A stretch of 64,000 nucleotides of DNA from Kalmusia sp. IMI 367209. Taxonomy: Eukaryota; Ascomycota; Dothideomycetes; Pleosporales; Didymosphaeriaceae. Position 1 is the first letter of the stretch. Each line of letters begins with the position of its first letter. The stretch is taken from assembly GCA_027946365.1 (NCBI GenBank), contig JAPEUQ010000008.1:1612001-1676000 (forward strand). Direction: 5' to 3'. The position numbers were made by a program, and so were the translations under genes. Below the pieces are notes generated by a model. The model saw nothing but the letters and a program-made list of their open reading frames with translations. It was not told the origin of the DNA and did not search any database. Positions 29,817 through 53,232 of this stretch are shown here, one piece after another.

Positions 29817-29824
29817 TATATAAA
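29817..29824 (+). promoter_or_regulatory. TATA box of the U2 snRNA gene
   Basis: The sequence TATATAAA lies about 30 bp upstream of the inferred U2 5' end, the usual Pol II TATA-to-start distance in fungi. It is one of the few canonical TATA boxes visible in the window. Confidence 0.7.
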
Positions 29825-29852: not shown

Positions 29853-30206
29853 CTTAGCTCTCTTTGCCTTTTGGTAAGCACCCCCCAACACTTGGTATCC
29901 TCTCATCGCTTCTTTGCTAACTCTTGCGTAGGCTTAGATCAAGTGTAGTATCTGTTCTTTTCAGTTTAATCTCTGAAAGTGAGTCCTGTCATTGCCTCCA
30001 CCTTGGTCCCTTTGCTAACAGTCGCAGCGTGACTACGGTCACATTTTCAAGATTATTCCTATTTTTGAAATCGGGTCTCCTCTCACTGGGCTTGCTCATA
30101 GTTGAGACCATAGTGTCGCCAGTGTAAGTTCTTCCCGTCCTCATTCATGCATGGTTAATATTTGCTAACCTCAACTCTAGATTGCACTATCTCTGGCTGA
30201 CGCGAA
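29853..30206 (+). ncRNA. U2: U2 spliceosomal snRNA gene interrupted by three introns
   Basis: Four exons (about 29853-29873, 29932-29978, 30028-30123, 30181 to about 30206) splice to roughly 190 nt, the usual U2 size. Joined exons 1 and 2 give CTCTTTGCCTTTTG+GCTTAG then GATCAAGTGTAGTATCTG and TTCTTTTCAG, the near-invariant U2 5' domain; the branch-recognition GTAGTA is at 29945-29950. Stem IIa is TTCAG/CTGAA. Stem IIb is GTGAC-TACG-GTCAC (30029-30042), capped by a UACG tetraloop. The Sm site ATTTTTG is at 30061-30067. Stem III pairs GGTCTC (30074) with GAGACC (30104). Stem IV pairs 30113-30122 with 30193-30203, and its loop, TATTGCACTATCT, forms only after intron 3 is removed. Introns are 29874-29931 (58 nt), 29979-30027 (49 nt), 30124-30180 (57 nt), each with GTRAG start, TTTGCTAAC and AG end. 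The 5' and 3' ends are estimates. Confidence 0.93.
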
Positions 30207-31194
30207 CACATCCCTTTTCATTGAGCTGTCTAGCTGCTGCTAGCACTTGAGGAAGAATCAGTTGCGTTTTTCCTGTCTGCAAGGTGGGAATGTGTAGCTG
30301 GCTGGCTTGATGGTTCGCATCCGCTAGAGGTGGTTGCGATACCTTAAACATATCTACTACTCTCTAGCTGATGCGGATCGTTCTCATTTAAGTTTTTGGC
30401 TGTTGCTGTTGTGGCTTGGACCTCGAAGATTTCCCCTCGGGTCTTCCGACTGTGTTGGATGCTTGAGAAGGATAGATATACTGGGGTGGTGCCATGAGAC
30501 TGTACGTGTGTATGTACCTGTGCTGTCTACTATACGGCTACTACGGCGGTAGAACCTTCTTTCCGGAAAAGAAGCCAAAGAGCGGGGTGCAGCTACATTC
30601 GTCTATCTCACTCACCGTCCTTAGGAGTCTGATGTATCTTGATCGGCGTATGACGAAATCGGTCAGAGGTAAAGAGACAGCATGACGTTCACACACATTG
30701 CATCGGGTTTGGTCATGAGAACTGGGCGAGACTGGAGGGATTGGGGCAGTTGCGCGCTGCGTGAACGCACAGGTACTCAGGTAAGGCTCTACACTTGTGC
30801 GCCTGGTGCCATTGACGACTTCTTTAGCAAGGCACGGGCGCGTGTGAGCTCGGAGTATTCGCATGCTACAGGACGTCAGTAGAGGGTACTTCGGCAAGAG
30901 ATAATGCAGCAGCCTATGCGTAGACAGTTTGTTAAAAATTCCATACTCTCACGTCTTTCTACAGCAAATAGATCCCAAGCAGCCCGAACATCACCTAGAT
31001 CAATGCTTTCAACCGGCTAATCTGATAACGTGCGTCAATTCTATCGCCATCGCTAACCGAGACCCATGTGACAACGCCAGATCATACAGTACAGCCCACC
31101 AATGCACCTGAAAGCTCACAAAAGCTACCCGAACCTTTTTCCCAGTCATAGTGTGGTATTGCCTCGCTCCCCTCTCGTGCGTAACCGACGGCTC
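30207..31194. other. Intergenic region downstream of U2
   Basis: No coding sequence supported; several TTGAG/CTAGCTG-rich stretches right after U2 could belong to its 3'-end processing signal, but I recognise no defined element. Confidence 0.35.
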
Positions 31195-50784: not shown

Positions 50785-53232
50785 TCAACTCGCAACATCA
50801 TTCGGATCTTCTAGCCTCTCCTGGATCAGTTCAACCTGCTTGACAGGATGCAGCAGCATAGCAGGCAAACACATTCTGCCTTCACCCGCTAGCTCCTCTT
50901 GCTCGCCACCGTCATTGTCGACCTTGTAGCCGAGCCACCGCTTCCACAAATTAGGCGCATGGCCAGCATGATAGTACCACGTTGTTCCTAGGAAGTTGTG
51001 CTGTCTCTCATCTGAGAAAATTGAAAGGCGACCCCCGCCGCTCGCACCGTTCCTGCCATTGTTGAAAATAGCGGCAAGGTACTGCACAGGCCATTTTCGA
51101 TCGATGAAGACAGGGTGCGGGGCGTAGACTGCCTTGAGGCCGTGGTGCAGCGCGCATGATGCGGGCCACATTTCGGAGAACATTGTGTGTCGCTTAAGCG
51201 ATTGCTCGCGGTGCATGGTCTCGAGGAGCCGGCGAGAGAGACGGCCAGATGTATTGATTGCAACGCGGCGAGGTGGAAGGCCTTGTGTCTTGTTGTAGCC
51301 TGTGACATCTTCGGCGAGTATCCAATTCGTGTGATCGGGGTCAAAGAGTGGATTGAGGACGATCAGGTCGGCGGGCTCGCCCACACCCCATTGAAATTTG
51401 TCTTCCTGAAATCTTCGGGGTGGTTTGGTATCTTCGTCAATCTCAATATCAGGATAATCAAGCGGAATTTCCGGACCCCATATTGGCTTCTCGGGCTTTT
51501 GTGATTCAAGTTCAGGCATATGTGGGTTTGGAGGAAGGTGCGAAGACCAGGCGTTGGCTTTGCTGTTAGTACCGTGCTCAGTCTGAACGCGCACCATCTG
51601 GGAAAAATCTTCCCAAGACTCATGTACGGCAGGGACGTAGAAGCGAGCATTGCGCTCCCAGAGTCCTTTACGGGGTTGTTTGTCTGTCCATTCACTAATC
51701 TTTTTGAATAGATGATAGTAGTGACCCGTGTAGCGGACATCCATCTCCCAGTGCCAGAAGAATTCGAATTCGGGATGCTGGTGGGCGAAATATGTGACAG
51801 GCATATACGCTGAGCGGTAAGCACCATGGACGGGCAGATCGCGGTACATAGAATCCTCAATGCCACCATAAATGAGTCCCATTTGGCGTTCCGACCAAAG
51901 TGTGCCCATTCCGGCAAACTCGGCGGGTAGTGATTTGTTGAGGACCTCTTGATAAACATCGTCTTCAGCCCAGATTTGCTTGTTATCATCCTTGACATGG
52001 ATTAAGAAGTGTACCTGGAACTCGCCGCCGGATCCAATGCTAAGCTCGGAGATGAGAGATCGGAGGTACATGATGTCCTCGTCATCGTACTCGTAATCCG
52101 ACCACGTCCTGATGAGGACCGCTGTGCGTGGAAGGAGCTTATTGTGTTTCACGTCTAGTGATGCCCGAACGGTTCCGTTGACGGACTTCTTATCGCCTTC
52201 TGCTCGAACATTGAGCGTTGTAGCATCTGACTCACTTGCAGTCATGGTTTGAAATTTTTGCTTGTGAGCGTCGGACATGGGCTTAAAACGATGCTTGTTC
52301 TTTTCCAAGCAGCGATCTAGCGCATCAGCCCATTTAACTTCGCGGAAGTCGACCTCTGGGCTTTGTTCCCAAACCTTTTCGCTGCCTTCTCGTTCACCTT
52401 CCATGGCGGCACCAGTGCCCCCTCGTCTCTTCGAGTATCCGAGTCCGTACGGACCTAACCGTCCGAAACGCTCGAAGCATACGTCATTCCGTAGACCAAG
52501 CAGATCGTAGGAGCCTATCACATTGTCCGGTGTCCCCTTCGTAATTCCGTTGTATACCCTCATCGGTGGAACCTGTATCTTATCTTTCGCGTCCAGATAA
52601 CATGTCTTCACCGGACCGTACTCTTCGATGTAATTTTTACTCTCATAGTCGGGATACGGATTGAAGGGTACAGAATCGGGCACGTTCCCGCCTTCCGAGC
52701 GTTTCTCCTTGGGCGAGACTTCCTTGGCCTCCTGTTCTGGCATCTCAGGATCTATGTCTTCCTTCGTTGGGTACTCCGGCACATTCTCCTTCCTGCTAAC
52801 CAGCGTCCGTATCCCACCGTGGTATCTCTTCAGGAAAGGGAAGCTTTCCCATACCGGCTTCTCAGGCGTAACTTTATGCAGGCCTAACTCAGCGCTCTGT
52901 ATTGATGCCCAGCTTCGATGAAAGAGAAAGAAAATGAACAGCAATATTGTAGTCCCAATTGCTAGCCCAAAGTACCTTGTGAAGGCTCGCGGATTCTTGT
53001 AGCTGTAGGCGCTCACCGACGGTCGGAAGGGTGCCCTCAGTGCTCGTTTGGGCGGTACGTATGCGCTCGAAGACGATCGTGATGAGTAAGGAGAAGATGT
53101 GGCGGAGGAGTTGTAGCTCTCATCGTCGCTACTGCTATGTTTCTCATAGTCAAGATCTTCGACATCGTATGCGGGGATTTCGTTGTAGTGTAGCTTCCGC
53201 TTCGCCACCTGCAGTGGCCGGAAGCCCAACAT
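50785..53232 (-). CDS. DUF3405 family membrane protein (glycosyltransferase-like), 815 aa
   Basis: Single exon from an ATG at 53232. A Ser-rich cytosolic N-terminus (SSSDDESYNSSATSSPYSS) is followed by one TM helix (YFGLAIGTTILLFIFFLFH), i.e. a type II topology. The large lumenal region has the DUF3405 hallmarks: TAVLIRTWSDYEYDDEDIMY, GEFQVHFLIHVKDDN, HPEFEFFWHWEMDVRYTGHY and WEDFSQMV. The DVRYTG region resembles glycosyltransferase DxD-type sites and the family is annotated only by domain number, so a Golgi glycosyltransferase role is inference. Later blocks FKFQWGV-like and MHREQSLKRHTMFSEM are also typical. Length is normal for the family. Confidence 0.88.
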   Translation of the reverse strand: MLGFRPLQVAKRKLHYNEIPAYDVEDLDYEKHSSSDDESYNSSATSSPYSSRSSSSAYVPPKRALRAPFRPSVSAYSYKNPRAFTRYFGLAIGTTILLFIFFLFHRSWASIQSAELGLHKVTPEKPVWESFPFLKRYHGGIRTLVSRKENVPEYPTKEDIDPEMPEQEAKEVSPKEKRSEGGNVPDSVPFNPYPDYESKNYIEEYGPVKTCYLDAKDKIQVPPMRVYNGITKGTPDNVIGSYDLLGLRNDVCFERFGRLGPYGLGYSKRRGGTGAAMEGEREGSEKVWEQSPEVDFREVKWADALDRCLEKNKHRFKPMSDAHKQKFQTMTASESDATTLNVRAEGDKKSVNGTVRASLDVKHNKLLPRTAVLIRTWSDYEYDDEDIMYLRSLISELSIGSGGEFQVHFLIHVKDDNKQIWAEDDVYQEVLNKSLPAEFAGMGTLWSERQMGLIYGGIEDSMYRDLPVHGAYRSAYMPVTYFAHQHPEFEFFWHWEMDVRYTGHYYHLFKKISEWTDKQPRKGLWERNARFYVPAVHESWEDFSQMVRVQTEHGTNSKANAWSSHLPPNPHMPELESQKPEKPIWGPEIPLDYPDIEIDEDTKPPRRFQEDKFQWGVGEPADLIVLNPLFDPDHTNWILAEDVTGYNKTQGLPPRRVAINTSGRLSRRLLETMHREQSLKRHTMFSEMWPASCALHHGLKAVYAPHPVFIDRKWPVQYLAAIFNNGRNGASGGGRLSIFSDERQHNFLGTTWYYHAGHAPNLWKRWLGYKVDNDGGEQEELAGEGRMCLPAMLLHPVKQVELIQERLEDPNDVAS

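Follow-up and report, generated by a model that had tools for sequence, protein, structure and literature searches.

The U2 locus and its interrupting sequences

The window (the whole 64-kb stretch of DNA analysed, on contig 29 of a genome searched over 42.8 Mb and 30 contigs) carries on its forward strand a U2 snRNA gene with three predicted introns (29853-30206; Rfam RF00004). Unspliced, the RNA scores 89.1 bits against the Rfam U2 covariance model, above the gathering cut-off of 46, in keeping with the first-pass annotation, which had named the gene from its letters; U2 is the sole Rfam match in the window at gathering cut-offs. A TATA box (TATATAA; 29817..29823, forward strand) precedes by 38 nt the UAGCU found close to the start of the RNA, and each of the four U2 loci of the genome has a TATA-like motif 35-40 nt ahead of its 5' end. 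Past the gene, on the same strand, lies a downstream element of the form TTCATTGA-hairpin-TGAGGAAGA (30217..30256), presumed to be a 3'-end signal. The promoter/terminator scan was designed for bacteria and has no meaning at a fungal locus.

All exons and introns read along the forward strand. Exon 1 (29853..29873; 5' end approximate) provides the U2/U6 helix II strand and the 5' strand of stem I, the 3' strand of which is split (G|GC) by intron 1 (58 nt, GTAAGC...GCTAAC...GTAG; 29874..29931), with a predicted branch adenosine in TTGCTAAC at 29920, 11 nt before the intron end. Exon 2 (29932..29978) holds the U2/U6 helix I region, the branch-site recognition sequence GTAGTA (29945..29950, inside the invariant core) and stem IIa. 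Intron 2 (49 nt, GTGAGT...GCTAAC...GCAG; 29979..30027; predicted branch adenosine at 30018, 9 nt before the intron end) then separates stem IIa from stem IIb, and exon 3 (30028..30123) comprises stem IIb, the Sm site ATTTTTG (30061..30067), stem III and the 5' half of stem IV. Intron 3 (57 nt, GTAAGT...GCTAAC...CTAG; 30124..30180; predicted branch adenosine at 30168, 12 nt before the intron end) falls within the stem IV loop, which we take by homology to be the loop bound by U2B''; exon 4 (30181..30206; 3' end approximate) supplies the rest of that loop and the 3' strand. Every element that the first-pass annotation ascribed to its three GT-AG intervals is present, and TTGCTAAC, holding the presumed branch adenosine, recurs in all three. 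Introns 2 and 3 can be placed in one way only. The boundary of intron 1 can be shifted by one base in either direction, but GT-AG results at a single position; an alternative acceptor, CTTAG, ends at 29937, and the acceptor at 29931 is preferred because the paralogous gene L001 favours it.

Joining the exons yields stem I (GCCTTTTGGC), stem IIa (TTTCAG/CTGAAA), stem IIb with its UACG loop (GTGAC-TACG-GTCAC), the Sm site ATTTTTG, stem III (GGTCTC/GAGACC) and stem IV (CCAG-TATTGCACTATCT-CTGG on GTGTC/GACGC), as had been proposed from the letters alone, and all 32 listed pairs are standard (32/32). Across the four U2 copies of the genome, 32/32, 32/32, 32/33 and 36/38 positions of the listed helices are paired, with two-sided pair changes in IIa, IIb, III and IV; the helices were picked and typed by hand, with one bulge of the divergent copy L004 omitted, and the pairing count is therefore a check and no blind test. 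In the spliced window RNA, the predicted pair probabilities are 0.97 in the upper part of stem I, 0.89-0.90 in stem III and 0.92-0.93 in stem IV; in the unspliced RNA those of stems I, III and IV drop to 0.00-0.01, in agreement with the earlier claim that retained introns break stem I and the stem IV loop. The introns make little difference to stems IIa and IIb, which are predicted to form in both cases and are therefore uninformative on splicing. Minimum-energy folds include stem IV in the window copy and L001 and lack it in spliced L002, so the folding test bears on the window copy only.

Elsewhere in the window, a protein encoded at 50785-53232 (minus strand) is 78% identical to its relative in Trematosphaeria pertusa and 80% identical to that in Paraphaeosphaeria minitans, these being the best named among the 120 of 1077 matches listed; other relatives among the matches listed reach 85%. 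Both named species belong to the Massarineae, Pleosporales, and by this one protein the fungus would be placed in the Pleosporales.

Paralogues as natural controls, and the signals of the introns

A genome-wide covariance search, in which the best candidates only (46 of 671) were scored and for which the assembly may miss a copy, returned four full-length U2 loci: the window gene, L001 (contig 6), L002 (contig 28) and L004 (contig 8). All four match over the full Rfam model, and they differ in intron content. (i) In L001, sites 1 and 2 are joined exactly and a 54-nt intron occupies site 3. (ii) In L002, a 51-nt intron occupies site 1, site 2 is joined to the base, and site 3 has no intron, the diverged loop there being one base longer. 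(iii) L004 has no intron at any of the sites, with substitutions and no gap at site 3 and diverged surrounding sequence at sites 1 and 2. Intron 2 is found in the window copy only, being missing from L001, L002, L004 and the U2 fragment L048. The search for other copies, a check that the first-pass annotation had proposed, favours its reading: of the three other loci, two carry a single intron each, and the only intronless one is divergent (L004, 80.9 bits).

Window and L001 exons are identical at 186/187 positions, as against 164/185 aligned positions for L002 and 135/174 for L004. Intron 3 of the window gene and that of L001 agree at 43/53 aligned positions, and the 300-base outer flanks of these two genes at 186/260 and 178/253, compared with 177/243 for one random pair. 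Exons are thus kept as introns and flanks drift, the pattern expected of a working RNA gene; the exon identity could come from gene conversion as well as from selection. What tells these two genes apart is confined to the introns, the tails at the 5' and 3' ends, and a single base of the exons, located after the Sm site (GAAATC in the window, GAACTC in L001).

Across the window (n=3), L001 (1) and L002 (1), all 5/5 U2 introns have a GTRNGY donor, GCTAAC, which is a branch-site-like sequence of the CTRAC type, and a YAG acceptor. When these signals were combined in a strict motif (GTRNGY-N20-45-GCTAAC-N4-14-YAG), the 64-kb window gave three matches on the plus strand, all of them the U2 introns, and two on the minus strand, relative to a mean of 0.5 per strand and a maximum of 3 in 64 kb under first-order Markov resampling (40 draws); the set of intron signals at the U2 locus thus goes beyond chance. 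With a looser motif (RCTRAC), one strand had 7 matches, the three U2 introns among them, and the other had 5, whereas resampled sequence averaged 1.3 and never exceeded 5; given this excess, such introns are seemingly used elsewhere in the genome. Strands of other loci in the same genome, 233,696 nt in all, contained five strict-motif matches: the L001 and L002 U2 introns, an intron in the U4 gene L019, and two overlapping matches in L039.

Introns at the same site resemble each other to a degree reached by 9/500 shuffles for intron 3 and 4/500 for intron 1; this lends modest support to their homology, for which the common position weighs more. Introner-like elements, i.e., repeated near-identical new introns, would show high similarity between introns at different sites. 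Of six such cross-site pairs compared, five had similarities that between 87 and 475 of 500 shuffles attained, and for the sixth, which pairs L001 intron 3 and L002 intron 1, the figure was 1/500.

No intronless canonical U2 was found in the genome by covariance search and core search. The U2 core GTAGTATCTGTTCTTNTCAG has three exact copies in the genome, all within intron-bearing genes, and the next-best match has two mismatches (13 matches listed, vs 14 for the reversed control). A DNA search of the genome with 78 bases of exon 3 recovered the three U2 genes and fragment L048; it missed L004 and the U2-like gene L041, and its reach is therefore limited. Fragment L048 (around 1500), which is without the core, lies ~8.6 kb from L001. 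On the minus strand of L002, ~190 bp past the gene (about 1330-1260), the sequence shows another 3' end of U2 type, together with a near match to the downstream element. By their sequences, both appear to be decayed U2 copies.

The intronless L004 retains GTAGTATCTGTTCTT, a TATA-like box and a degraded downstream element. Its 5' end pairs with U6 3' tails at -12.8 kcal/mol for L014, L015 (spliced) and L016 and at -8.1 kcal/mol for L013; the corresponding values for the window U2 are -16.4 (L013), -12.0 (L014) and -14.6 kcal/mol (L015 and L016). L004 thus avoids U6 L013 and outpairs the window U2 with L014 only. The idea of two matched U2/U6 sets is weakened by these values, as the canonical U2 pairs better with L015 and L016 than L004 does.

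A U2 gene that would need U2

From the sequence of the locus and its paralogues, we infer with high confidence that the window gene is a working, expressed Pol II U2 gene with three mRNA-type spliceosomal introns that are spliced out. This was also the reading of the first-pass annotation, and it is strengthened by paralogues with a single intron at the same sites. Three other explanations were weighed against it. The best of these, to which we still give little credit, is that U2 comes from the other loci, the window gene being silent or a pseudogene. Three more full-length U2 loci do exist, and U2 copies do decay in this genome, as seen from fragment L048 and the 3' remnant beside L002. Against this stand the exons, which differ from those of L001 at 1/187 positions while introns and flanks drift, as well as the intact TATA box and downstream element; moreover, were the window copy silent, L001 and L002 would still carry introns at sites 3 and 1.

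Budding yeast U2 is much enlarged, and some yeast U2 RNAs carry long extra segments. The inserts could by analogy be expansion segments retained in the mature RNA, and the covariance alignment of the unspliced RNA does span the whole model. We regard this as very improbable, given that 5/5 inserts start with GT, end with AG and contain GCTAAC, that they break stem I and abolish the predicted pairing of stems III and IV, and that paralogues without inserts have otherwise the same RNA. We give next to no credence to inserts of another kind, be they group I or II introns, insertions of mobile elements or errors of assembly: at 49-58 nt, the inserts are much shorter than any known self-splicing intron, their spliceosomal signals are complete, U2 is the one Rfam family matched in the window at gathering cut-offs, and introns occupy the same sites on other contigs. 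What speaks for mobile introns is their occurrence in Pleosporales rRNA (PMC11889510).

Under the preferred reading of a spliced Pol II gene, the transcript would start near 29853 and terminate via the shared downstream element, and the primary transcript would be spliced three times by the major spliceosome. As exons 1, 2 and 4 are only ~21, 47 and 26 nt long, recognition would probably occur across each short intron. Since U2 reads branch sites, making U2 would need mature U2, and U2 from earlier rounds would thus mature new U2. The branch-site reader itself carries introns with branch sites in each canonical copy found; i.e., all three canonical U2 genes are intron-bearing, and the canonical supply would therefore depend on U2 in a positive feedback. 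Such self-dependence is no paradox because a growing cell inherits U2. L004 could be the source of a splicing-independent base level of U2. We put at about an even chance the wider proposal, in which (i) canonical U2 would become functional only after splicing by U2, (ii) the resulting feedback would be self-sustaining with L004 as its starter, and (iii) introns of the U2, U4 and U6 genes would still be gained and lost.

The mosaic of introns among paralogues implies, on the present sequences, a turnover of introns. Because L002 falls outside the window gene and L001 by exon similarity, the presence of intron 1 in the window gene and L002 is suggestive of its loss, most simply, in L001; intron 2 would likewise most simply have been gained in the window gene, and intron 3 is common to the window gene and L001, this history being parsimony on few copies. 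Near-identical-exon paralogues that differ by intron presence or absence offer a natural system for the study of intron loss and of how introns enter snRNA genes, for which reverse splicing in the spliceosome is an old proposal. The same genes offer a natural system for asking whether the spliceosome limits its own supply by a feedback loop.

Introns in fungal snRNA genes, one U2 included, are already known, as the first-pass annotation had noted for U6 in fission yeast and for several snRNAs in basidiomycete yeasts. Takahashi et al. reportedly described in 1993 a U2 snRNA gene with one mRNA-type intron in Rhodotorula hasegawae. Like the window gene, this is a fungal U2 with an mRNA-type intron; R. 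hasegawae is a basidiomycete yeast with reportedly one intron, whereas the window gene belongs to an ascomycete mould and has three, and here five introns are spread over three genes and three sites, varying between paralogues. Tani and Ohshima reportedly dealt in 1989 and 1991 with introns that interrupt the U6 gene in fungi (S. pombe, Rhodosporidium), and Canzler et al. are said, per the title of their 2016 paper, to have dealt with multiple intron gains in fungal U6. These too are mRNA-type spliceosomal introns in a catalytic snRNA; U6 is a Pol III product and a different RNA, whereas the main case here is U2. S. pombe U6 is also treated in a further source (PMC8917221). In a study of fungal U3 snoRNA genes (PMC5832005), short canonical introns likewise interrupt a structured RNA, and eight genomes hold both intron-bearing and intronless paralogues; four genes have two introns, with no case of three noted there. 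The likeness to the window U2 lies in the short introns and the mixed paralogues; U3 is no splicing RNA and therefore, unlike U2, would have no self-dependence. That such introns were undescribed in this kind of ascomycete, as first suggested, agrees with the literature searched (main subscription papers beyond reach), in which no introns were reported in U2 or U4 of moulds of this group; such agreement falls short of proof. What is of interest here is the paralogue intron mosaic, together with a U2 that would need U2.

Outside this genome, the U2 core (24-mer) had no match in a viral contig collection, and a 29-mer U2 query had none in a genomic contig collection. A 21-mer U2 query of the latter returned four stretches on three eukaryotic-looking (contaminant) contigs. 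U2 on these contigs has no intron at the sites covered, i.e., from inside stem I for L050, from after site 1 for L051, and up to model position 76 for L052; the fourth core match, on L051, is a short fragment only. The organisms concerned are distant, and L049 contains histone 3' stem-loops.

Introns and 3' elements in other small RNA genes

Of the U4 genes, three in number, only L019 is interrupted: an intron of 50 nt (GTGAGT...GCTAAC...GCAG; minus strand, reverse-complement position 1463) follows ATCCCAGTGCTCG. Once spliced, the 5' part of L019 aligns with the U4 copies L018 and L020; on the unspliced sequence, the 5' end of the U4 model was aligned to intron sequence, an example of how intron-blind snRNA searches misplace genes. 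A 50-nt intron (GTGAGT...CTGAC...GCAG; minus strand, reverse-complement position 1578) also lies close to the 3' end of one of the four U6 loci, L015; it is missing from L013, L014 and the 5'-truncated L016. Both introns have GT-AG ends with donor and acceptor consensus, and the phenomenon is therefore not confined to one locus. The truncated U6 copy (L016, 1501-1800) is followed downstream by an inverted repeat of its own 3' end, with a stretch that looks tRNA-like by eye between the two; it is perhaps a U6-derived piece within a mobile element.

Alignment of all five U1 copies revealed no intron, the single U5 copy aligns through its Rfam model, and the single U3 copy is without evident intron as judged by length only. 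All five U1 copies score below the Rfam U1 cut-off. U12 had no match in the genome, but the control genomes were equally without a match, so this negative says little about whether U12 is present.

The genome contains 24 matches to the downstream element, searched as TTCATTGA-N-GAGGAAGA, vs 0 to the reversed pattern. In eight of these, the element comes after a gene that Rfam recognises (U1 in four cases, U2 in three and U3 in one; window 30217-30256, L001/L033, L002, L021/L035, L023, L032, L034 and L038), and the search revealed two further U1 genes in this way (L032 and L034). Another four follow TATA-driven genes of other kinds (L037, L040, L041 and L042), and the remaining 12 have no gene attached, some lying apparently in coding sequence. 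Near-matching forms are found after U1 L022 and the U4 copies. The element may act as a 3'-end signal for small RNA genes.

L037 (1371-1494, plus strand) is U1-like, at 23.3 bits and an E value of 0.05, far below the cut-off, with a TATA box, a GATCAAGAAG loop and an Sm-like site; near its presumed 5' end, CAG|GTGAGT stands in place of the ATACTTACCT of U1, a predicted layout that recalls spliced-leader RNA. L041 (1541-1765, minus strand; contig 25: 3543888-3544112) is a gene with a TATA box and the 3' element. Over ~94 alignment columns its 3' half resembles U2, with an Sm site and stems III and IV, but its 5' half is without the U2 core; it scores 32.1 bits against the Rfam U2 model, below the cut-off, and to judge by its letters is a chimeric U2-like Sm RNA. 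A DNA search with L041 matched itself alone, though U2 genes share its 3' half; the search is therefore insensitive, and the description of L041 as single copy rests on it. L042 (plus strand, upstream of an element at 1501) is a short TATA-driven gene with a AATTTTTG Sm-like site, the 3' element and no Rfam match; it and the L041 gene run in opposite directions, with ~550 bp between their TATA boxes.
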